39,137 nt of DNA, from the IMG/VR virus record IMGVR_UViG_3300047508_000194, positions 1 to 39,137 of that record; one strand, 5' to 3'. This DNA comes from a virus. Below are positions 10,202 through 26,616 of the stretch, in pieces. The notes under the pieces were generated by a model. The model saw only the letters and a list, made by a program, of their open reading frames with translations. It did not search any database and was not told the origin of the DNA. Made by a program: the position numbers and the translations under genes. How positions within the stretch are numbered: the first letter of the stretch is position 1; each line of letters starts with the position of its first letter.

Positions 10202-11362
10202 TCAGTTGACGAGATCGTTTGATGGGACTTCCTGGCTCTCGCTTTCGCCGTGGAGACGGTCCTGGAGCTCGGCAACGCTCTTGAGCAGACTTTCATCGGT
10301 TCGTTCGTAATGACGCCGCAGGACATCGGCCCTCGTGTGAGCGCTTAGCAGCCGGACTACTTCTTCCGGGCAACCGGCTTGCAGGAGTCGCATGACTCCG
10401 GTTGCCCTCAGATCGTGAAAACGGAATTTCTCGATTCCCGCCAGGCGGCAGGCCGTCTTGAATCCATGGGTGAAATTGTTCTTGATCCCAAACACGCTCG
10501 ATTCGGGATCCTGAGTGGATAGTTCATAGAGCCGCCTGAGCTCCCGCAAGAGCCGCTTCGAGATTGGATGATGGCTCGAGCGAAGCGTTTTCGTGGTCCT
10601 CGCCCGCGTGGTGATCATGCGCTTCTCGAGGTCGACATCCTTCCAGCAGAGCTTGAGCAGGCTCCCATTTCGGAGGAGCGTGTCGATCGCCGCGATGATG
10701 ATTGGTCGGATATGCAGGCGGATACCTGAACAGTGCTCGATCAGGCGCCGCTCTTCCTCGTCTGACAAGACGCGCTCACGGCGTGTCTCGTCGGCCGCGG
10801 AGATGAGCTTCGAAAAGAGCCGATGCGGTGAGGTAATGAGCCAGTTATTGTTCTCGGCGAATGTGAATATTTGGCGGACGATTTGCAGGTCGTAGTTGAC
10901 TGACCGGAATGTCCGTTCCCTGTTCGGGTCAATGACTGAGCTGGTCGCGTGGCGCATGACTGGCGCCTTGAACCGCTCGAATCGAAACTCCTCTATATCT
11001 GCCCTGGTGATCGATTGGATTGGCGTGTCGCCGAAATAATCCGCGGCGCGCCGGACGAGGGTGCTAACCCATTTGTGGCTTGCAATTCCGCGAATTTTGC
11101 GGCCCTGGGCATAGATGGGCGGGACACAGTGAACGCGCTCATACTCAAGAGCCACTTCACGAAATGTCCGTTTATTGCCCCGAATCCCTGGCTCGTTCTT
11201 TTCGAGGCCGGCCAGGAGCTCATTGATAAGCCGGCGGGCCTCGGATCTGGTGGAGGCTGGAAGCAGACGCTCATGCCGATCGCCTTCGTCGTCTGTCCAT
11301 CGCACTCGCCCGTATATGCGGCCTTTGATGACTCGGATAGTTCCCTGCCTCAATCTGGCCAT
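10202..11362 (-). CDS. int: Tyrosine-recombinase integrase
   Basis: A 386-residue protein. The N-terminal part (1-60) is a short beta/arm-binding-like region (RVRWTDDEGDRHERLLPAST). Residues ~65-190 are the SAM-like core-binding domain (TFREVALEYERV...). The catalytic domain follows with all residues visible: Arg231 (DTLLRNGSLLKL), Lys258 (RTTKTLRSS), His316 and Arg319 (FHDLRATGVM), His342 (SAHTRADVL) and Tyr352 (RRHYERT). It catalyses site-specific integration between attP (9617-9662) and a host tRNA-Thr gene. It is transcribed leftward after the repressor gene and directly before 9830-10183. Full length, no sign of decay. Confidence 0.95.
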   Translation of the reverse strand: MARLRQGTIRVIKGRIYGRVRWTDDEGDRHERLLPASTRSEARRLINELLAGLEKNEPGIRGNKRTFREVALEYERVHCVPPIYAQGRKIRGIASHKWVSTLVRRAADYFGDTPIQSITRADIEEFRFERFKAPVMRHATSSVIDPNRERTFRSVNYDLQIVRQIFTFAENNNWLITSPHRLFSKLISAADETRRERVLSDEEERRLIEHCSGIRLHIRPIIIAAIDTLLRNGSLLKLCWKDVDLEKRMITTRARTTKTLRSSHHPISKRLLRELRRLYELSTQDPESSVFGIKNNFTHGFKTACRLAGIEKFRFHDLRATGVMRLLQAGCPEEVVRLLSAHTRADVLRRHYERTDESLLKSVAELQDRLHGESESQEVPSNDLVN

Positions 11363-11371
11363 AAGGGGGGA

Positions 11372-11845
11372 TTATTCCTTTCTCTGTTCCGTTACTTCGC
11401 GAAAATAGACGATGCACTCGCTGATATTGACCAGGTGCTTGAGGACCAGCGCCTGTTCCTTCTCGCCAAGAGCATTTGCCTCGAACGTGATGGACATGCA
11501 CTCGAGGGCAATGGCAGTCTTGAAATCCAAAGAACTATCCGGGCTCAGATGATGAAGATGGTTTCGGAGTGCTCGATGATTGCGCTTTTTCATTGGTGCT
11601 TCCCTGTCGGCCGCAACCAGCATCAAAGCTTGATCGATATCGAACTCAAGAACAGCAGCAAGTCGCTCCAGTACCGAGCGTTTGATCCCACCAGAACCTG
11701 CCTCAATGCGAACAAGAGATGAGCGGCCAATACCTGTCATCTGGGCCACTTGACGCTGGCTCAAAATTTTTTTCTGTCGTTCCTGGGCAACAAAAGCACC
11801 GAATGATTCAGAGATACCAAGGTTTTCTCTAGTCGTTTTAGGCAT
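11372..11845 (-). CDS. XRE-family repressor (CI-like)
   Basis: A 157-residue protein. An HTH_3 domain at residues ~12-70 (SFGAFVAQERQKKILSQRQV, then AQMTGIGRSSLVRIEAGSGG and LERLAAVLEFDIDQAL) is followed by a helical C-terminal domain (FKTAIALECMSITFEANALG; ISECIVYFREVTEQRKE) that could dimerise. There is no S24 peptidase signature, so SOS self-cleavage is not evident. It is divergent from the HTH gene at 11952 and just upstream of int, the classic immunity layout. The start ATG 11845 has no clear ribosome binding site and may be near-leaderless. It probably represses the rightward promoter at 11889-11918. Confidence 0.85.
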   Translation of the reverse strand: MPKTTRENLGISESFGAFVAQERQKKILSQRQVAQMTGIGRSSLVRIEAGSGGIKRSVLERLAAVLEFDIDQALMLVAADREAPMKKRNHRALRNHLHHLSPDSSLDFKTAIALECMSITFEANALGEKEQALVLKHLVNISECIVYFREVTEQRKE

Positions 11846-16719: not shown

Positions 16720-18984
16720 GTGTCTACGCCGCTCCCTCAGTGTGATGCGTTCTACTACATCTACAACCAGCAGGGCGATGTTGCGCCTGGCGTTCTAGTT
16801 ACGTTGAAAGAAGTGATTGACGCGGGCGGCAGTTCGATCCTGCTCAGTCCCCTGACTACGCTTACCGACCCAGCCGGAAGCTTCCACTTCACCCTTCCTG
16901 AAGATGCCCAAGTCAATATTGCCGCTCGCGCAACCGGACTTTGGAACTGTCCAGAAGGCCGGTGGTTTAAAGTTCCGCCCGGACCATCGGGTGAACTGAT
17001 ACCCGACTTCACACTCCCTCCAAGCACGACCGTTGAGCCACCCCTCATCTACCTTGACGGCGTGCTCTCGATCCCGAAAGCCACAGCGACTCAGGATGGC
17101 TACTTGTCGGCTGCTGATTACGTCGCATTTCTCGCAGGAGCAACGAGCGATATGGGCGTCGTAAGTTTCAACACGCGCACTGGCGAAGTCATGCTGCTGA
17201 GCAATGACGTAATCTTCGCGCTCGGCTACGTACCGATCAACAAGGACGGCGACACCATGAACGGGCCGCTCGTTCTTCCGGGCAACCCGACATTGGGTTC
17301 TCAAGCTGCGAACAAGGCCTACGTTGATGCTAATAGAATCCAGAGCATTCCGGGCGTTGCGGGCACCTATCCCAATCCCTCGAGTATCACCGTCAATGCG
17401 CAAGGTCAGATTATCGCAATTACCAGAGGGACGCCCGATACCACGCCGCCCGTCATCAGTGCCGTTAGCGTGATAAGCATTACTGCGACTGGCGCAACGA
17501 TCACTTGGACTACGGATGAGCCTGCCGATTCCCAAGTCGAATACGGGCCGACGACCGCTTATGGCGCTTCGTCGACTCTCGACTCATCGCCTGTAACGAC
17601 TCATTCCGTAACGATCATCGGACTCGCGGCAAGCGCGCTTTATCACTATCGCGTCAAATCCCGAGACACTGCCTCAAATCTCGCAACGTCAGGTGATTTC
17701 ACTTTCACGACCACGGCAGCACCTGATACCACGCCGCCAGTCATTAGCGCCGTTGCCAGCTCCGGCCTGACTGCTACGGGTGCAACGATCACCTGGACGA
17801 CGGATGAACCAGGCGATTCGCAGGTGGAGTATGGGCCAACGACCGCTTATGGCAGTTTATCGACCATCAATCCGTCACTTCTAACAAGCCATTCCGTGCC
17901 AATTACGGGTCTCACGGCAAGCACGCTTTATCATTACCGCGTCAAGTCTCGGGATGCAGCTTCGAACCTCGCAATATCGACTGATTTCACTTTCACGACA
18001 ACAGCCGGACCGGATGTTACGCCGCCTGTCGTCAGCGCCGTTGCCAGTTCGAGCATTACCGGGACTGGAGCAACAATCACCTGGGCGACCGATGAGGCGA
18101 GTGATTCTCAGGTGGAGTACGGCACAACTACCAGCTATGGGTCTTCGACAGTGCTCGATCCGTCAATGGTCACGAGTCATAACGTCACGATCAGCAGCCT
18201 CACTCCATCGATGTTTTATCACTACCGCGTCAAATCGAAAGACGCAGCGGGAAACCCCGCAACATCGGCAGATTTCACCTTCACTACTACTGCGCTGATG
18301 GATCCGACCGTTGGGCTTGTCTCCTACTGGACGATGGATGAGACCTCGGGCACGCGAGCTGATACAAAGACCCTGAATCCACTGGCAGTGGGTTCAGCAC
18401 CTGTGGGAGCAATTGCGGGACTTCCAGGTCTTGGAAATGCCGCCGACAGCCCCGGTAACAACACTTTTCTCAGTGGCCCTGACAGTCCGAGTCTCCGCTT
18501 TACGGGTTCAATGTCCATTGTCGGATGGATGAAGATACACGCCACTAGTCCTCAATATCATACGCTCTTGGCGAAAATTGGCACCGGGACAGACTGCAAC
18601 TGGATAGTCTGGTACAGGTCCGATACTCACCAATGGGATTTTATAGTCTCCGCTGATGGAAATCTGCCGGGTGTCACGGCGACAGTCCCGAATTTGACGC
18701 CGACCTTGGAGACCTGGCATCACATAGCGGCAGTCTTCAATATGAGTACGGGCCAGATTCAGTTGAAGATTGATGACGGCGCGGTGGGCAGCGATACCAA
18801 GACGTTCGCCGGTCCGATCTTTGGGTCAGCAGCGAATATGAGTAGCCTTCTGACCTACATCGATTCTGCCTTGTGGGGCAATTGCGCCGTTGAGGAGGTT
18901 GGCATCTGGGATCGTGCGCTTAGTGATGCTGAAATTACTTATCTCTTTAATGCCGGATCGGGGCGTACCTATCCCTTTAGTTAA
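16720..18984 (+). CDS. Tail fibre/adhesin with three FN3 repeats and a LamG-like domain
   Basis: A 754-residue protein; GTG 16720 is the only sensible start. The N-terminal part (about 8-110) resembles a carboxypeptidase-regulatory or Ig-like fold. It is followed by a fibre motif SFNTRTGEVMLL...ALGYVPINKDGDTMNGPL (about 147-190). Three FN3 domains of exactly 96 residues occupy residues 240-527, each with ATITW[TA]TDE..DSQVEYG and a YHYRVKS[RK]D core. A LamG/concanavalin-like domain runs from about 532 (GLVSYWTMDETSG; ...GWMKI; WHHIAAVFN; EVGIWDRALSDAEI). It is a probable carbohydrate-binding virion adhesin. It shares the fibre motif and the LamG domain with the next gene and lies unusually upstream of terminase. 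Confidence 0.8.
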   Translation: MSTPLPQCDAFYYIYNQQGDVAPGVLVTLKEVIDAGGSSILLSPLTTLTDPAGSFHFTLPEDAQVNIAARATGLWNCPEGRWFKVPPGPSGELIPDFTLPPSTTVEPPLIYLDGVLSIPKATATQDGYLSAADYVAFLAGATSDMGVVSFNTRTGEVMLLSNDVIFALGYVPINKDGDTMNGPLVLPGNPTLGSQAANKAYVDANRIQSIPGVAGTYPNPSSITVNAQGQIIAITRGTPDTTPPVISAVSVISITATGATITWTTDEPADSQVEYGPTTAYGASSTLDSSPVTTHSVTIIGLAASALYHYRVKSRDTASNLATSGDFTFTTTAAPDTTPPVISAVASSGLTATGATITWTTDEPGDSQVEYGPTTAYGSLSTINPSLLTSHSVPITGLTASTLYHYRVKSRDAASNLAISTDFTFTTTAGPDVTPPVVSAVASSSITGTGATITWATDEASDSQVEYGTTTSYGSSTVLDPSMVTSHNVTISSLTPSMFYHYRVKSKDAAGNPATSADFTFTTTALMDPTVGLVSYWTMDETSGTRADTKTLNPLAVGSAPVGAIAGLPGLGNAADSPGNNTFLSGPDSPSLRFTGSMSIVGWMKIHATSPQYHTLLAKIGTGTDCNWIVWYRSDTHQWDFIVSADGNLPGVTATVPNLTPTLETWHHIAAVFNMSTGQIQLKIDDGAVGSDTKTFAGPIFGSAANMSSLLTYIDSALWGNCAVEEVGIWDRALSDAEITYLFNAGSGRTYPFS
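17437..18300 (+). repeat. Three tandem 288-bp FN3-coding repeats
   Basis: Units at 17437-17724, 17725-18012 and 18013-18300 each encode 96 residues beginning DTTPPVISAV or DVTPPVVSAV and ending FTFTTTA. They are alike at both protein and DNA level, showing recent duplication. Unit number may vary between relatives. Confidence 0.9.
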
Positions 18985-21461
18985 TGAAGGTCACGATCAA
19001 ATCTCAGACGGGCCGTATCAATGTTCGTCCTCCACTCCTCTTTGATGGTGCAACGCTTTCAATTCCACGCGCCTCGGCTACGCAAAATGGCTACCTCTCG
19101 CGCAATGACTTCATTCTCTTTTCTGGAGGTGAGGCTGTGGCAGTAACCTCTTTCAACACCAGAACGGGCGAGGTGCTTTTACTCGACGATGATGTCCTTG
19201 CCGCCCTGGGTTATACGCCCCTCAATAAGGCGGGCGACACGATGACGGGTCCGCTTACCCTTGCGGGACCTCCCGCCAACTCACTTCACGCAGTAACGAA
19301 AGCCTACGCTGATAGCCTGGTGGTGAGCGGCGCCAGTGCGCGTCCTGGGCTCTTCTTTGTTGCGGATTATGGAGCATCCGGCTCTAAGATCACCTTCAAT
19401 GGCGCAATCACGACAGGCTCGACAACTCTTACTCTAACGACCTCTGCGCACGACTTTGTAGTCGGTCAGGGTATCAACATCGTCGGGGCAGGAAACATCG
19501 CTTCGATAGATCCGGGGTCGAACCTGCTTGTCTCGACTATTACTGCAATCGCAGGGGCAACAATCACGATTGCAAACGCCGCCCTCCATACGGTCAGCGG
19601 GGCCGTAATCAAGCACGACGATACCGTAGCCATCCAGGCGGCCATAAATGACTGCTTTGCTGCCGGGGGGCTGACGGTCTACTTCGACACCTACGGGTAC
19701 TACCGGATCAACAAGGGCTTCACTGATTACGACTCGATCCTCAAGGTTCCGCACGTTTCGTGGCTTGGTCCGGGCGGAATAGGCGCGGCCCCGACGCCCA
19801 CCATCAGGTTTCACGGTGACGGGAACACCGTAGCTACGGCGCTCAACCAGGTAGCTACGGTGGGGCCGGTTATCCAGACAGACCTCATAGGTGCGACGGC
19901 CACAAGCTCGATGCTGAGTGCCCAGCAGTATGTTGCGAGCGCGGATATTGTCGGGACGTGCATCACGATCATCGTCGAGGGGCTGACCTTCAGAACCTAT
20001 GATAATCCCCAGATCTGCGGCGTCGATATGGGGATGGTCTGGAACTTCTACGCCAAGGACTTGTGCTTCGATGCTGGAGTGATGGGCCAGGAGAATACGC
20101 AGGTTGGCGGCTCACAGCCCGGAGCTTCCGAGCCGACACATAACACGTTTGGTATCAGATTCCCTCGCGTCAACGCCTGCACTATTTCCAACGCCGATAA
20201 CGTCTCTGTGACCAATTACGGGATTGGAATAATTGCTTCCGAGCTGTTCCACGCAACCACTCCCTGCTTTATTCAGCGATGCAAGGTGGGCTTTCAGACT
20301 CACGAGACAGCGGCTAACTACCCGTTTACGGGACAATTGCTTATCTGCCATTGTGCAACCGGGGTGCAATGGCTGTCACATTGTCCCTGCGACATTCACG
20401 TTGAATTTGAAACCTGCGGGAGTCCCGCGTGGGCGACGGCGATTGAGGGCAGATATTTTTACGACCCGAATGATGTCGCTACCGGAAAGATATCCTACCT
20501 GAATATCGGCAATGGTACGGCTTCGCCAGGCGGAAACAGAGCCGCGACCTGGACAGGATTGAGCAAGGTTGCCATCTCCTCCCTCGGAGGATTTGCGAAT
20601 CAGATTCCGAACGTCATCATCAATCGCGGCCACATATCGGCGGATGAAGTGATTGCCCGCAACTCCATCACTCTTTGGGACGGGGCGGGTTATCAGCCAT
20701 TACTGCTCGGTGCCAATGACAGCGGCATGCCAGGATTCAGGGATGTCATTACCCATAACGCGGTGGCGACATTACTAACAGGCCTCGTTTCCTACTGGAA
20801 GATGGATGAGGCGGGAGATGGGACGCAGGTCCGTTACGACCAGATGGAAGTCAACAACTTCGTACCTTCCATTTACGGGCCTGTTCCTGCTGTGGCGGGC
20901 AAGATTGGAAGCGGAGCTGCGAGTGGCAGTGGTGGTGGGGGGTTTATGACCGCTCGCGGGAATGCCAGCCAGAACTTCGCGGGATCGTTCTCAATTTCCG
21001 GCTGGATGAAGATCGTCAACCTATCCAGTGGAAGCGGGTTTGCCGTCCTTCTCTCCAAGGGCGGTACAACCCTAGACAGGTCATACGACATCTACTGGCG
21101 AAACGACCTTCTAAGATGGGAGTTTGGTGTAACCTCCAACGGCTCGACCGGGGCTACCGCGATAGTCTCGCATACTCCGACCGTGAACACTTGGTATCAC
21201 GTAGTTGCCGTATTTAATTCGAGCACCAACCAGATATTCCTGACGATCAATAACGGGGCAGTTGGCAGCGTGACCCAACCATTTACCGGACCCGTCTTCG
21301 GTAACATCGCAACGGGCTTGTCTACGATGCTGATGTATAACGGCACAGCCCTCCGCTCGGATTGCATCGTGGACGAGATTGGCCTGTGGAATCGCGCTCT
21401 GACTGGCGCGGAAATCACGGCACTCTATGGCGGGGGATCACCACCTGCATATCCATTCTGA
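18984..21461 (+). CDS. Pectate-lyase-like tailspike with C-terminal LamG-like domain
   Basis: An 825-residue protein; ATG 18984 overlaps the previous TAA (TAATG). The N-terminal fibre motif SFNTRTGEVLLLDDDVLAAL, then GYTPLNKAGDTMTGPL, is shared with 16720-18984. From about residue 124, FVADYGASGS and later KHDDTVAIQAAINDCFAAGG, FDTYGYYRINKG mark a pectate-lyase-type right-handed beta-helix, typical of depolymerase tailspikes. A LamG-like domain begins near residue 598 (GLVSYWKMDEAGDG; SISGWMKI; WYHVVAVFN; EIGLWNRALTGAEI). It probably degrades or binds host capsule or O-antigen. Catalytic residues cannot be assigned by eye. Confidence 0.8.
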   Translation: MKVTIKSQTGRINVRPPLLFDGATLSIPRASATQNGYLSRNDFILFSGGEAVAVTSFNTRTGEVLLLDDDVLAALGYTPLNKAGDTMTGPLTLAGPPANSLHAVTKAYADSLVVSGASARPGLFFVADYGASGSKITFNGAITTGSTTLTLTTSAHDFVVGQGINIVGAGNIASIDPGSNLLVSTITAIAGATITIANAALHTVSGAVIKHDDTVAIQAAINDCFAAGGLTVYFDTYGYYRINKGFTDYDSILKVPHVSWLGPGGIGAAPTPTIRFHGDGNTVATALNQVATVGPVIQTDLIGATATSSMLSAQQYVASADIVGTCITIIVEGLTFRTYDNPQICGVDMGMVWNFYAKDLCFDAGVMGQENTQVGGSQPGASEPTHNTFGIRFPRVNACTISNADNVSVTNYGIGIIASELFHATTPCFIQRCKVGFQTHETAANYPFTGQLLICHCATGVQWLSHCPCDIHVEFETCGSPAWATAIEGRYFYDPNDVATGKISYLNIGNGTASPGGNRAATWTGLSKVAISSLGGFANQIPNVIINRGHISADEVIARNSITLWDGAGYQPLLLGANDSGMPGFRDVITHNAVATLLTGLVSYWKMDEAGDGTQVRYDQMEVNNFVPSIYGPVPAVAGKIGSGAASGSGGGGFMTARGNASQNFAGSFSISGWMKIVNLSSGSGFAVLLSKGGTTLDRSYDIYWRNDLLRWEFGVTSNGSTGATAIVSHTPTVNTWYHVVAVFNSSTNQIFLTINNGAVGSVTQPFTGPVFGNIATGLSTMLMYNGTALRSDCIVDEIGLWNRALTGAEITALYGGGSPPAYPF

Positions 21462-21497: not shown

Positions 21498-21689
21498 ATG
21501 GTTGAACAACATAACCTGGACGTCATCGCGCTTTTCACGAGCTTTCTTGAAGCCTTTGGGAAAGCCACGCCTGAGGAACGGCGCTCATTTCTCGATTTCA
21601 TCTCGCCGCAATCACGCGCTGACCTCCTAAATCTCGCAGATGCGCTGCGACAGAAAGCTGAAAGGGATGATCCATCCAGGAAAGCCTGA
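21498..21689 (+). CDS. Small helical protein after the tailspikes
   Basis: A 63-residue protein from ATG 21498 with GAGGCG upstream. MVEQHNLDVIALFTSFLEAF, then GKATPEERRSFLDFISPQSR and ADLLNLADALRQKAERDD. All-helical, possibly dimeric. A longer frame starting at 21427 overlaps the spike end and is not preferred. Function unknown. Confidence 0.6.
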   Translation: MVEQHNLDVIALFTSFLEAFGKATPEERRSFLDFISPQSRADLLNLADALRQKAERDDPSRKA

Positions 21690-21737: not shown

Positions 21738-22190
21738 ATGGGCGAAAATTTAGAAAGCCTTCAAAAATCACTGAACACCATCCAGGCGGGCAATGCCGCA
21801 ATTGCTCAGGACCTTCAAACCATTTCTGATCGTCAGAAGAAACTGACTGAAGGACTCAAGAAAGTCGCGACCGCTGGAAGTGCCGCGAGGTCCGAATTGC
21901 AGGACCTGGCCAATCAGGCGGAAGAGATTGCAAAGAGCGTCGCACAAACCACGCAGAAGGCGCAGCAGGCTGCGCACCCTGCACATGCGGACCAGGGACT
22001 TCCGGGGCAAGGCCGACCCGATCAGGGACTCCCAGGGCAGCCTGGTCATCCCGATCACGACTTGCCGTCAAGCCCCGGTCATCCAGGCAATCGGCCGCCA
22101 GTCAGCGCAGGGCATCCTGATCACGACTTGCCGAATGCCCCTGCCAAGCCGGATGCGGGCTTACCGCCGGGTGCGCAGCCGAAGAAGTAG
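21738..22190 (+). CDS. Coiled-coil protein with PDxxLP/GHPDHDLP repeats
   Basis: A 150-residue protein with a strong ribosome site (GGGAGGTAAATC before ATG 21738). Residues 1-78 form a long coiled coil (SLQKSLNTIQAGNAAIAQDL; LANQAEEIAKSVAQTTQKAQ). Residues 83-144 are low complexity with recurrent [PH][PA]DxxLP units: HADQGLPG, RPDQGLPG, GHPDHDLP, GHPGNRPP, GHPDHDLP, KPDAGLPP. The tail is Pro/Gly/Asp/His-rich and probably extended, perhaps a metal-binding or assembly linker. The repeats are visible at DNA level. The location between fibres and terminase, and the coiled coil, suggest a virion or fibre-linked role, not proven. Confidence 0.7.
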   Translation: MGENLESLQKSLNTIQAGNAAIAQDLQTISDRQKKLTEGLKKVATAGSAARSELQDLANQAEEIAKSVAQTTQKAQQAAHPAHADQGLPGQGRPDQGLPGQPGHPDHDLPSSPGHPGNRPPVSAGHPDHDLPNAPAKPDAGLPPGAQPKK

Positions 22191-22194
22191 ACAA

Positions 22195-22326
22195 ATGAAT
22201 GGCGAACACCCATGGCGCGAATGGGCCGAGATTGTCGGGATACTAGCCGTCGGCATCGCGATCGTCGTCGCCGTCGTCCGGCTCATTATTCGATGGTCGC
22301 ATGACGAGAAACCGCCGGGGCAGTAA
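22195..22326 (+). CDS. 43-residue single-span membrane protein
   Basis: MNGEHPWREWAEIVGILAVG, then IAIVVAVVRLIIRWSHDEK, from ATG 22195, four bases after the previous TAG. One transmembrane helix (about 13-33) is flanked by charges. Its stop TAA is immediately followed by the next ATG (22327). A candidate holin-like or exclusion peptide with no direct evidence. Confidence 0.6.
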   Translation: MNGEHPWREWAEIVGILAVGIAIVVAVVRLIIRWSHDEKPPGQ

Positions 22327-22545
22327 ATGGACCTCAAAACCGAAACGCTCAGGCTTGCAATGGATCGCGTTACAGCGGCAACAAACGACCTCCGCGCGAT
22401 CGCGCTCGATCAACTGGCTACGCATTCGATCGACGACCTGACGGCCGGCCGGCTTGCGACGATCGCCGATAAACTCGAGACGGTCGTCGGCGTCCTCAAC
22501 GAAACGATTCACTCAAGAGTCGCTAAGCAGAAGGGTGACTCTTGA
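22327..22545 (+). CDS. Small helical hypothetical protein
   Basis: A 72-residue protein directly after the membrane peptide. MDLKTETLRLAMDRVTAATN, then LATHSIDDLTAGRLATIADK and LETVVGVLNETIHSRV. Helical, no cysteines or membrane segment. Last gene before the terminator at 22562-22610. Unknown role. Confidence 0.6.
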   Translation: MDLKTETLRLAMDRVTAATNDLRAIALDQLATHSIDDLTAGRLATIADKLETVVGVLNETIHSRVAKQKGDS

Positions 22546-22561
22546 AGTGTCCGATATCGGG

Positions 22562-22610
22562 AATCAAACGAACATCCCAAATGCAATGAATGACATGCGT
22601 TTGATTTTTT
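22562..22610 (+). terminator. Rho-independent terminator upstream of the packaging genes
   Basis: AATCAAACG (22562-22570) and CGTTTGATT (22598-22606) form a perfect 9-bp stem with a 27-base loop, merging into TTTTTT (22605-22610). It separates the early/fibre region from the late operon. The short AT-rich stretch to 22629 may hold the late promoter, but no clear -35/-10 pair was found. Confidence 0.7.
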
Positions 22611-22629
22611 CAAAGTTTTTCAAACAGTA

Positions 22630-22908
22630 ATGGCACGTGGTGGGCGCCGTCCGGGAGCGGGCCGAAAGAAGAAATCGAACGATTTGACTCTTAAGGAATT
22701 GCTCGATGGGTCATGGCCCGATAGGCAAAAAGAGAAAGCTATTCAGGCCCAGGCGAAGCTCGCAGCGCTTGGTGATACCAGGGCCTTTCTTGCACTCATG
22801 GCTTACGGCTTCGGCAGGCCGATCGAGCATCACGAAATCAGCGGCCCTTCGGCCGGCGGCGTGATTCTGAAATGGAGCGATGACAAGACCGGCCCTTCAA
22901 AACACTGA
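22630..22908 (+). CDS. terS: Terminase small subunit-like protein
   Basis: A 92-residue protein starting MARGGRRPGAGRKKKSND, the basic glycine-rich opening common in phage small terminases. It is followed by LTLKELLDGSWPDRQKEKAI and AALGDTRAFLALMAYGFGRP. Overlaps the large subunit gene by 29 bp. It would recognise the packaging site and regulate the large subunit. It is short for the family and lacks a clear HTH, so the assignment rests mainly on position and the N-terminal motif. Confidence 0.7.
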   Translation: MARGGRRPGAGRKKKSNDLTLKELLDGSWPDRQKEKAIQAQAKLAALGDTRAFLALMAYGFGRPIEHHEISGPSAGGVILKWSDDKTGPSKH

Positions 22909-24094
22909 GGTGACGCTCCCGCCGCTCCACCCGGCACAACTCGAGGTGGCTCAGCATCCTGCGCGGTTCCGCGTACTCTGCACGGGGCGCCGCTTCGGCA
23001 AAACCAAGCTCGGAGCTGTGCTCTGCGTTGCTTCGAGCCTTCAGGGAAAGCGAGTCTGGTGGGTTGCCCCAAGTTATCCCATGGCGTCGATTGGCTGGCG
23101 CGAGATCAAACAGCTGGCCGTTCAGATCCCAGGTGCGATCCTTCGTGAAAGTGAGCGAATGATTGAGATGCCGGGCCCTGGCCGGGTTCAGGTCAAGTCG
23201 GCCGACAATCCAGTGAGCCTCCGCGGTGAGGGCTTAGACCTCGTGATAATCGACGAGTGCGCTTATGTCGATGAGGAGGCTTGGGCCGAATCATTGCGTC
23301 CGGCGCTCTCCGATCGCCAGGGCCGCGCTCTCTTCATCTCCACGCCAAACCGTCGCAACTGGTTCCACGCGCTTTACATGAGGGGCATCGAGAACGATCC
23401 CGACTGGTGCTCCTGGCAATTGCCGACCTCGGCAAATCCCTTCATTGATCCGGCCGAGATCGAAGCCGCCCGCGGCGAGATGTCTGCAGATTCATTCCTG
23501 CAGGAATACGAGGCGCAGTTTCTCGAGGGCTCGGGTTCGGTGTTCAGGAACATCTTGGCCTGTCTCACAGCTCCGCGTGACGCAAAAGTGCGTGATCACG
23601 CCGGCCACCGCATCGTCGGCGGTGTCGATTGGGGCCAGATCAACGATGCCACGGCCCTGTCAATCCTCTGCGCGGATTGCCGCGTCGAAGTCTATCTCGA
23701 CCGTTTTCACCGGCTACCATGGCAACAACAGCGTGACAGGATCAAGACGGCGGCTGACAGGTGGAATGCGGAACTACTTGCGGAGGTAAACAGCATAGGA
23801 TCGCCTAATCTCGAAGCGCTGCTCGCCGGCGGCACCCGCATTCAGGGCTTCATTACATCGGCGGCGACCAAGCCGCAACTCATTCAATCGCTTGCCCTCG
23901 CATTTGAGCGGGAAGAGGCCCAGTGGCTTCCTGACCCGCATGGGCGAGCAGAGCTCGAGGCATACGAGGCCCGCATCTCGCAGGCGACAGGTCGCCCGCA
24001 GTACTCCGCGCCCGAAGGCTTGCACGATGACACGGTAATTGCTCGAGCGCTTGCTCTCAGAATGGCGCTCATTCAACCGCTGAGGCTGCTATGA
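22880..24094 (+). CDS. terL: Terminase large subunit
   Basis: A 404-residue ATPase-nuclease that packages DNA into the prohead. Walker A at CTGRRFGKT (34-42), Walker B LVIIDE (121-126), coupling motif FISTPNRRN, and the RNase H-like nuclease Asp at GVDWGQINDATAL (D250) with HDDTVIARA near residue 386. It starts inside terS and ends overlapping the Acb2-like gene (ATGA). The length is usual for the more compact members of the family. Confidence 0.92.
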   Translation: MTRPALQNTEVTLPPLHPAQLEVAQHPARFRVLCTGRRFGKTKLGAVLCVASSLQGKRVWWVAPSYPMASIGWREIKQLAVQIPGAILRESERMIEMPGPGRVQVKSADNPVSLRGEGLDLVIIDECAYVDEEAWAESLRPALSDRQGRALFISTPNRRNWFHALYMRGIENDPDWCSWQLPTSANPFIDPAEIEAARGEMSADSFLQEYEAQFLEGSGSVFRNILACLTAPRDAKVRDHAGHRIVGGVDWGQINDATALSILCADCRVEVYLDRFHRLPWQQQRDRIKTAADRWNAELLAEVNSIGSPNLEALLAGGTRIQGFITSAATKPQLIQSLALAFEREEAQWLPDPHGRAELEAYEARISQATGRPQYSAPEGLHDDTVIARALALRMALIQPLRLL

Positions 24095-24312
24095 TCTTGA
24101 AAACCTTTGCGTATCATTCGCCGTCGCCTGCTGGCTTAGCCAAAATCACCTCTCTGCGCGAAGCTTTCTCTCAAGTCGCAGACGCAATTCAGAAACATGC
24201 CCCCGACTCGCGAGAGAAGAGCGTCGCCCTGACGCAACTCGAAACGGCGGCGATGTGGGCCGTCAAAGCGGTCGTTTTCAACGACCCAGAGAGTCAACAT
24301 GAAACTTCGTGA
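24091..24312 (+). CDS. Acb2/Tad1-hairpin-like protein, candidate anti-CBASS/Thoeris sponge
   Basis: A 73-residue protein between terminase and portal, overlapping both (ATGA at 24091; 14 bp with portal). It reads FAYHSPSPAGLAKITSLREA, then SREKSVALTQLETAAMWAVK. The family pattern I know is F-YH-P------Y--LR, then SRE-SLA-TKLEEA-MWAN-AIAR, found in the Acb2 (anti-CBASS 2, cyclic-nucleotide sponge) group, often encoded among phage structural genes. Acb2 forms a compact hexamer that sequesters CBASS cyclic di- and tri-nucleotides; related members bind Thoeris signals. Here the core SRE-S-A-T-LE-A-MWA motif (residues 40-57) is intact, but the usual N-AIAR end is replaced by VKAVVFND. Binding specificity is unknown. 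Confidence 0.7.
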   Translation: MILKTFAYHSPSPAGLAKITSLREAFSQVADAIQKHAPDSREKSVALTQLETAAMWAVKAVVFNDPESQHETS

Positions 24313-25768
24313 TCGCGTCAAAGATGCTTGGAATGCGCTCACAGCGACGGCGTCAGGCGCGCATCCCTATGCAACCGGCTTCTTTCCTTCATGGCCCGAT
24401 CAGAATCCCTTCGTGCCGCTTTCAGGTCCGGGCGATCTGACGCTCTCGTCTGTCGTCATGGCCTGCGTCAACTGGGCAGGCACGACGTACCCGTCAGCGC
24501 CAGTCGTCGTGCAGGAGCAGAAAGGGCTGAAGGTCTGGGAGACGATACCGGATCACCCGCTCGTCGAGCTGCTCGAGGATCCAAATCCCTATTTCGCTGG
24601 CGTCACTTACTGGCGCTCGTTCGCTTACTGGTGGCTCGTTTACGGGAACGTCTACTACTACAAAGCGCGCAATCCGCGCGGTCAGGTCGTCGAGCTTTGG
24701 CAGCTGGATTCACGCGCTGTCATGCCGATGTGGCTCGGTGGGCCGGGAGCTGATCTGCCGATCAATGCTCTTGACGCCAGCAGCGAGCGCAGCGGGATCA
24801 CTTACAGGTACAGCGGCGCAGGCCTGCCGCCTGACATCCCGCCTTCAGACATCATTCATTTTCGCAGCGGCATTGATCCGAATAATCATCTGCTCGGCCT
24901 CCCGCCCGTTCGCGCGATTCTGCGCGAAGTCGCGACTGACAACGAGATCAGCACGTACTCGACGCAGATCATGGCGAATTTCGGCATTCCTTCCTTCGTC
25001 GTGGCCCCGAAGCCCACGCCGGATGGTGTCTACCGCCTCGATGAACAGGGCATGGATGAGGACATTCGCGCACGCACGATGGGCGCGATGCGCGGCAAGC
25101 CGCTCATCTTCTCGAAGCCGATGGACCTGACAGCGTTCGGCTTCTCGCCTGATCAGATGGGCGTCGAGAAGCTCAGCCGTCGACCAGAGACGCGCGTCTG
25201 CGCAGTCCTCGGCATCCCCGCAATCGTTGTCGGATTCGAAGTGGGACTCGAGCGCTCGATTTACAGCAATATCAGAGCAGCTGAAGAGCTTGCGTGGGTC
25301 AACCACGTCATCCCGACGCAGGACTACATTGCGCGCACGCTGACTGACGACCTGCTGAGCGAGCCGATCCTCTCTGAGAGCGGCGAATGGGCAGGTAGCG
25401 AGGCAGATGAGACATATCGGGTGATCTTCGATCGCTCAGCCGTCGCCGCGCTGCAGGAAGATCGCAATGAGCTTTATACGCGCGAGTCGATGGCCTGGAC
25501 TTCAGGCTGGAAGAAGCTCAACGAAGTCAGAAGTGCTGCCGGCCTCGAAAACGATCCGAACGGCGATGTCTACATCAGCCAGGCGAGCGGTGGCATCACG
25601 CAGCAGACCGATCGTCCTGTCGCGATCGGCACGCCGGCGCAGCCGCGGGCGAAGCAGTTCGGCGATCCCGCCTCGCTCGAACTCGCTGAGCTTGATCGCT
25701 GGTATGCCGCTGTCGCGCCACGAGGCGCGCAGGGGTTGCTCGATGCCGTATCAAAGCCCGCTTCTTAG
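24299..25768 (+). CDS. HK97-family portal protein
   Basis: A 489-residue protein. Portal features: LSSVVMACVNWAGTTYPSAP, a central region (YWRSFAYWWLVYGNVYYYKA), the clip/stem area (PPSDIIHFRSGIDPNNHLLG) and SRRPETRVCAVLGIPAIVVG. It forms the dodecameric ring at one head vertex, the docking site of terminase and connector proteins. Codon usage here avoids GCC and favours GCG/GCA, unlike the next gene. Length is typical. Confidence 0.92.
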   Translation: MKLRDRVKDAWNALTATASGAHPYATGFFPSWPDQNPFVPLSGPGDLTLSSVVMACVNWAGTTYPSAPVVVQEQKGLKVWETIPDHPLVELLEDPNPYFAGVTYWRSFAYWWLVYGNVYYYKARNPRGQVVELWQLDSRAVMPMWLGGPGADLPINALDASSERSGITYRYSGAGLPPDIPPSDIIHFRSGIDPNNHLLGLPPVRAILREVATDNEISTYSTQIMANFGIPSFVVAPKPTPDGVYRLDEQGMDEDIRARTMGAMRGKPLIFSKPMDLTAFGFSPDQMGVEKLSRRPETRVCAVLGIPAIVVGFEVGLERSIYSNIRAAEELAWVNHVIPTQDYIARTLTDDLLSEPILSESGEWAGSEADETYRVIFDRSAVAALQEDRNELYTRESMAWTSGWKKLNEVRSAAGLENDPNGDVYISQASGGITQQTDRPVAIGTPAQPRAKQFGDPASLELAELDRWYAAVAPRGAQGLLDAVSKPAS

Positions 25769-25859
25769 AATTGCATTGGTGGTTTATTACATTCTGTGGT
25801 TCCTGGTTCTCGTGTTCATTGGATATCTGGCATTCGAAGCTATGAAATATGGCCTTTAG
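25743..25859 (+). CDS. 38-residue single-span membrane peptide
   Basis: MPYQSPLLRIALVVYYILWF, then LVLVFIGYLAFEAMKYGL, starts at ATG 25743 inside the portal end (26-bp overlap) and ends overlapping the next gene by 11 bp. One clear hydrophobic helix (residues 8-30). Coding status is supported by tight overlaps on both sides, but it might be chance. The function is unknown. Confidence 0.5.
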   Translation: MPYQSPLLRIALVVYYILWFLVLVFIGYLAFEAMKYGL

Positions 25860-26616
25860 CGACACATTCTTTCAGGATGACGGGGATGAGCCGGTCTCTC
25901 AGATGCCGCCCGAAAAGCGGCATCGCGTACTCAGGGCGGCGCTCGCTGCCGGAATCCTCTTCCTTTGGGACAAACCGAGCCGTCGCTATTACTCGACGGA
26001 GACAGAACAGGTAGTCCGCGAGGCGACGATCAGGCGCTTTGTCAAGGAGATTGGGGACGCCGCCAAGAGCCGCCTGCGCCAGCTCACCGAAGCCAAAACG
26101 CGCGGGGAGATCAGCCAGGCGGCATGGGAAGTCGCCATGAAAAGCGAGATCAAGAACCTTCACCGGACGATGGCGGTCATGGCGCGCGGCGGCAAGGATC
26201 AGATGACGCAGCGCGACTGGGGCCGGGTCGGCCGCGTGATCGCGAACCAGAACAAGTATCTCAATCAGTTCAGCGATGATGCCGCTCTTGGACAATTGTC
26301 AGATGCTCAGCAGATCGCCCGTGCCGAGATATACGCAAATTCCGCATATTCGACTTATGAGAACGGTGTCGCCGTCCGCAACCTCGAGTCAGGAGTGACA
26401 CGTGGTCGCCGCGTGCTCGAGGAAAGCGCTCAGCACTGCGACGAATGCCCTGATCTTGCAACTGAAGAATTCATTCCGATCGACGAGATCACGCCGATCG
26501 GTGACACGCCTTGCCAGGCTAATTGCCGCTGCACGATCGAATACGAAGACGCGCCGCCTGCTGCTGTACCAGATGAACAACAACAATCAGACATCGCCGC
26601 AAACGAAGCAGCTTGA
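25849..26616 (+). CDS. Minor head / head-morphogenesis protein
   Basis: A 255-residue protein after the portal. Helical body (EVAMKSEIKNLHRTMAVMAR; GRVIANQNKYLNQFSDDAAL) and a C-terminal Cys-containing motif: SAQHCDECPDLATEEF, then PIGDTPCQANCRCTIEYED. The C--C...PG-TPC-NCRC pattern is characteristic of SPP1 gp7-like and Mu gpF-like minor head proteins. It probably assists scaffold assembly or DNA ejection. It has richer GCC use than the portal. Confidence 0.75.
   Translation: MAFSDTFFQDDGDEPVSQMPPEKRHRVLRAALAAGILFLWDKPSRRYYSTETEQVVREATIRRFVKEIGDAAKSRLRQLTEAKTRGEISQAAWEVAMKSEIKNLHRTMAVMARGGKDQMTQRDWGRVGRVIANQNKYLNQFSDDAALGQLSDAQQIARAEIYANSAYSTYENGVAVRNLESGVTRGRRVLEESAQHCDECPDLATEEFIPIDEITPIGDTPCQANCRCTIEYEDAPPAAVPDEQQQSDIAANEAA

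Follow-up and report, generated by a model that had tools for sequence, protein, structure and literature searches.

Upstream of the portal gene of an uncultured phage, directly behind the gene for the large terminase subunit (terL), lies an open reading frame of 73 codons. The question raised by this locus is whether the frame encodes a sponge for cyclic-nucleotide defence signals, as an earlier note on the DNA had suggested from a few motifs, and how such a gene came to stand among the packaging genes. The analysed stretch, hereafter the window, comprises the 39,137 nucleotides of IMG/VR record IMGVR_UViG_3300047508_000194. The Acb2 family, its mechanism and its occurrence in many phages are already established; demonstrated here are the membership of this protein in the family, its predicted monomer fold, the retention of pocket residues, the accessory insertion of the gene, and a conserved sub-family. 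It is highly probable that the product is an Acb2-family sponge binding cyclic-nucleotide defence signals, encoded by an accessory insertion between terL and portal. The locus offers a clear example of a probable anti-defence gene set cleanly into a packaging operon, and five close relatives display the empty site. Moreover, a large Acb2 sub-group can be defined, and its conserved tail yields testable predictions of ligand choice.

The gene and its position

The features of the locus are collected in Table 1. The translation of the short frame is MILKTFAYHSPSPAGLAKITSLREAFSQVADAIQKHAPDSREKSVALTQLETAAMWAVKAVVFNDPESQHETS, and the motifs on which the earlier note had relied (F-AYH-SP, LRE and SREKSVALTQLETAAMWA) are all found in it. 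Its placing between terminase and portal was also correct, with terL upstream, portal downstream and overlaps on both sides. A dedicated acb2 promoter, in the form of a sigma-70-like site, was not found within positions 22000-26000, and the gene would probably be expressed with the packaging and head operon.

Table 1. Features of the acb2 locus in the window
Feature	Position	Strand	Remarks
terL, terminase large subunit	22880..24094	+	PF03237/phrog_2
ATGA overlap (4 nt) of terL and acb2, insertion point	24091..24094	+	same overlap between terL and portal in L059-L063
acb2-like gene, 73 aa, ATG start	24091..24312	+	PF24729 match at residues 7-61
Y8 codon	24112..24114	+	equals Vs.4 Y8 and PaP2 p26 Y11, base-stacking tyrosine; Tyr in 100% of the sub-family
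R23 codon	24157..24159	+	equals Vs.4 K23 and p26 K26; Arg throughout the sub-family (100%) and in 97% of N-AIAR proteins
R41 codon, SREKS motif	24211..24213	+	aligned by hand with p26 R67
K59 codon	24265..24267	+	equals Vs.4 R79; basic counterparts are R in p26, K in 9ptq and R in CbTad1
Signature tail V62-F63-N64-D65-P66-E67-S68	24274..24294	+	search pattern did not extend to residues 63-68
Overlap (14 nt) of acb2 end and portal start	24299..24312	+	
Portal protein	24299..25768	+	PF04860

Family assignment and predicted fold

The earlier note had called for a profile search. The only Pfam family that hmmscan assigned to the protein was PF24729 (Acb2_Tad1_hairpin), with a score of 64.8 bits (E 8e-18), more than double the curated cut-off of 27 bits. 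On the same model, Vs.4 of phage RB6, a near-identical copy of the proven cGAMP sponge of T4, reached 71.2 bits. The shortness of the frame might suggest a chance open frame; that reading was rejected on the Pfam match, is further contradicted by conserved homologues across many phages, and retains a negligible probability. Purifying selection was also indicated by pN of ~0.24-0.34 vs pS of 0.70-0.79 against three sub-family relatives, for which dS is saturated or nearly so. The PHROG match was phrog_1454 (E 5e-17), a family of unknown function. Among PDB sequences, phmmer matched 9ptq, "Acb2 homolog 43", and a profile of 10 sequences recovered 9ptq at 6e-11, the C-terminal hairpins of Tad1 (SRE...LT..EEALMW) at 6e-4, and Vs.4 at 0.022.

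The AlphaFold2 monomer, predicted with 45 natural homologues, has a pLDDT of 92 and helices at residues 2-6, 13-36 and 41-63. The predicted fold consists of a short N-terminal helix and two long antiparallel helices, with no other domain, in agreement with the helical hairpin previously expected. The same helix architecture has been described for the Acb2 protomer (PMC12043709). In Foldseek, the best PDB match was 9ptq, a complex with 3'cADPR (TM 0.78, rmsd 1.6 A); the Vs.4-cGAMP complex came next among the relevant matches, and PaP2 Acb2 and Tad1 were found further down. The E-values of these fold matches are weak, 0.028 at best, because a hairpin of 73 residues is a small and simple fold.

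The profile, the predicted fold and the pocket residues bear out that the protein belongs to the known Acb2 sponge family. Membership in Tad1, which the earlier note had named alongside Acb2, was rejected: Tad1 proteins possess an N-terminal antiparallel beta-sheet followed by a helical hairpin, in about 120-140 aa, whereas the window protein has an all-helical core of 73 aa without the N-terminal beta part. Elsewhere in the family, homologues of ~71 aa in Paenibacillus phage Heath (MH460826.1, L176:789-1004) and similar Paenibacillus phages carry the label 'putative phosphomannomutase', almost certainly a misannotation.

Pocket and interface residues

In the complex of Vs.4 with cGAMP, Y8 and F82 provide stacking contacts and Y8, H11, K23 and R79 polar ones, and the Vs.4 hexamer is held by L29, A66, A73 and A77 (PMC10097602). 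In HMMER and MAFFT alignments, the five contact residues correspond to Y8, P11, R23, K59 and V62 of the window protein, with F63 adjacent. Since F82 aligns with V62, and F63 lies one residue on, conservation in register is lost along one wall of the cGAMP pocket. The three interface alanines correspond to A46, A53 and A57, position 53 being mostly Thr in the sub-family, and Vs.4 S74 corresponds to A54. Vs.4 T68 corresponds to T48, which is invariant in the sub-family, and the change T68M reduces Acb2 binding in T4-like phages (PMC12657230). As far as alignment can tell, the residues of the Vs.4 cGAMP pocket are mostly retained.

Comparison with the solved relatives indicates both likenesses and differences. 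T4 Vs.4 (7uq2, with cGAMP) shares PF24729, Y8, the basic residues at 23 and 59, the threonine at T48/T68, the interface alanines and the W-A-x-[KR]-A-V end with the window protein, but it is about 26% identical, carries ~20 extra residues between the hairpin helices, and is without the SRE arginine (R41). 9ptq is also a single hairpin domain of ~70 aa with the REKS-x-x-x-T-x-LE-x-A core and a basic residue at 59; however, its identity is about 31%, threonine takes the place of Y8, and the FNDPxS tail is absent from the aligned part. For the Acb2 of PaP2 (p26; 8h2j, 8h2x, 8ixz), direct comparison with the window protein gave no detectable sequence match, and the link was made via Vs.4. Through it, the Tyr and Lys of p26 are 15 residues apart, the spacing of Y8 and R23, an arginine occupies position 59, and R67 falls opposite R41. 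R67 of p26 is a residue of the trinucleotide pocket, and R41, by its alignment with R67, would suggest a trinucleotide site.

The terL/portal junction in relatives

Five relatives (contigs L059-L063) were obtained by a terL search of viral contigs; a portal search there gave none. Their terL is 57-59% and their portal about 60% identical to those of the window. In all five, terL is joined straight to portal by ATGA, with no open reading frame between, and this is the overlap that joins terL to acb2 in the window; the ATGA can therefore be regarded as the insertion point. Because acb2 is missing from the junction in these close relatives, it is best read as an accessory gene inserted at a translationally coupled terL/portal junction. 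Additionally, a PF24729 search, which does detect the window gene, found no match over the whole length of six related records (two of 38-39 kb and one of 42 kb, possibly incomplete).

Other differences surround the portal. A small gene of 63-64 aa, 69% identical, has been relocated: in the window it precedes the terminase genes (21498-21689), and in relatives it lies directly 3' of portal (L059:3750-3944, L060:7693-7887, L061:7660-7854). The relatives also encode an extra protein of 312-360 aa, ~31% identical to the major capsid protein of the window (L059:3941-4879, L060:7884-8822, L061:7851-8933, L062:7854-8810, L063:7851-8795), and the window is without it at that place. A closer homologue of the window capsid protein exists further downstream in 4 of the 5 relatives, so the extra protein may be a second capsid-like paralogue.

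A sub-family with a conserved tail

The earlier note had regarded the C-terminal end as an alteration of the usual N-AIAR. When viral contigs were searched with a DNA pattern for MWA[IV]KAVV, 103 stretches matched, and the Acb2 profile recognised the product of 101 of them; with earlier relatives added, the sub-family comprises about 79 distinct phage proteins. Uniformity extends outside the searched residues, with K4, Y8, P11, S12, R23 and R41 at 100% and F63-N64-D65-P66-x-S68 at 93-100%. Since KAVVFND is common to the whole sub-family, the supposedly altered ending is not private to this protein but a signature. Nor is the end unusual against characterised members, as had been supposed, for no solved Acb2 examined ends in N-AIAR.

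The N-AIAR proteins, from Paenibacillus, Bacillus, Gordonia, Streptomyces and other phages or prophages, belong to the same Pfam family and share the F-x-[YF]-H-x-P...R...SREKS core. They differ in N58, A59 and R63 (49 sequences), where the sub-family has I/V58, K59 and F63. A single branch splits the two groups with support of 97/91, in a short alignment of groups picked partly by this motif. A basic residue at 59 is common to the solved relatives examined; the N-AIAR proteins are usually without one. No report of experimental work on the sub-family was found in the open literature, and it is apparently a large, uncharacterised sub-group of Acb2.

For 76 distinct members of the sub-family, the adjoining genes are highly mixed and include some terminases, Sak4-like annealing proteins, methyltransferases, ParB-like proteins and unknowns. 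The statement that such genes often lie among structural genes applies to the window and a few relatives, but it does not extend to the mixed neighbourhoods or to the empty junction of the close relatives. Among the nearest Acb2 relatives (L002-L004), no terL/portal synteny was found. One sub-family member is present in the genome of Limnoglobus roseus, of the Planctomycetota (L014:7971-8213 and L084); since an IMG/VR contig of 43.9 kb carries the same sequence, the gene probably belongs to a prophage. In Limnoglobus, whose species L. roseus is the one named host of a sub-family member, and in Singulisphaera, no match to a SMODS nucleotidyltransferase was found.

Proposed function and alternative readings

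Vs.4 is a hexameric sponge with a Kd of about 30 nM (PMC10097602), and the sequestration of defence signals by sponges has been reviewed (PMC12043709). The helical-hairpin protein of the window may likewise assemble into a hexamer, which would tightly bind, without degrading, the cyclic-nucleotide second messengers of the host. Candidate ligands are the di- or trinucleotides of CBASS and possibly the Thoeris signal 3'cADPR. With the signal sequestered, effectors would not be triggered and the infected cell would be spared early death. The counteraction of CBASS and/or Thoeris proposed in the earlier note is what we infer for the predicted sponge. The gene would have entered the phage as an accessory exactly at the terL/portal ATGA junction. 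Acb2 triggers Panoptes (PMC12657218, PMC12657230), a possible cost of carrying it.

The position between terL and portal, with reading frames overlapping on both sides, would be accounted for if the hairpin had been recruited to assist packaging or head assembly, for instance as a terminase-portal adaptor. However, five relatives with ~60% identical terL and portal are without the gene, homologues adjoin unrelated genes (Sak4, ParB-like, methyltransferase), and the pocket residues are kept, so that such a role is very improbable. Equally improbable is a decayed, non-functional Acb2 remnant. The changed equivalents of Vs.4 H11 and F82 might suggest decay, but the frame is intact, pN is well under pS, and the supposed alterations are conserved in about 79 distinct proteins.

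For the Acb2-family sponge itself, the hints on the ligand diverge: Y8 resembles the cGAMP-binding members, and the nearest structure contains 3'cADPR, which makes Thoeris a serious possibility. That 3'cADPR, and not a CBASS oligonucleotide, is the main natural ligand is nevertheless only a tentative proposition. It is favoured by 9ptq as the nearest solved relative in both sequence and fold, and by the related hairpin of Tad1, a Thoeris antagonist, which also matches the family profile. Against it, the tyrosine at position 8 is that of cGAMP-binding Vs.4 and PaP2, with threonine there in 9ptq, and the low identity to 9ptq makes transfer of its ligand unsafe. A more speculative and rather unlikely reading is that the C-terminal pocket wall of the MWA[IV]KAVVFNDPxS sub-family has been remodelled and that these proteins sequester some signal not among the ligands of characterised Acb2 proteins. 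Under the same doubtful reading, that signal might be another oligonucleotide of CBASS, an isomer of cADPR, or a messenger of the Panoptes or CRISPR type. If true, this would imply a prevalent, unstudied signalling defence in the hosts of dozens of unrelated uncultured phages.

Lifestyle, host and other genes of the phage

A tyrosine integrase (PF00589) is encoded at 10202-11845 on the minus strand and adjoins a Cro/CI-type HTH protein; the integrase together with this repressor-like gene makes a temperate lifestyle probable. Homologues of the portal were found in 4 of 294 Planctomycetota genomes, at 38% identity at best, which does not decide the host, and the identity to phage records is about 34% at most. 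Upstream of the packaging genes, a long protein with fibronectin III, purple-acid-phosphatase N-terminal and laminin-G-like lectin domains is encoded at 16720-18984, followed by a second long protein with a laminin-G-like domain (18984-21461). These two products are probably tail or receptor-binding proteins, and parts of them are arranged differently among the relatives.
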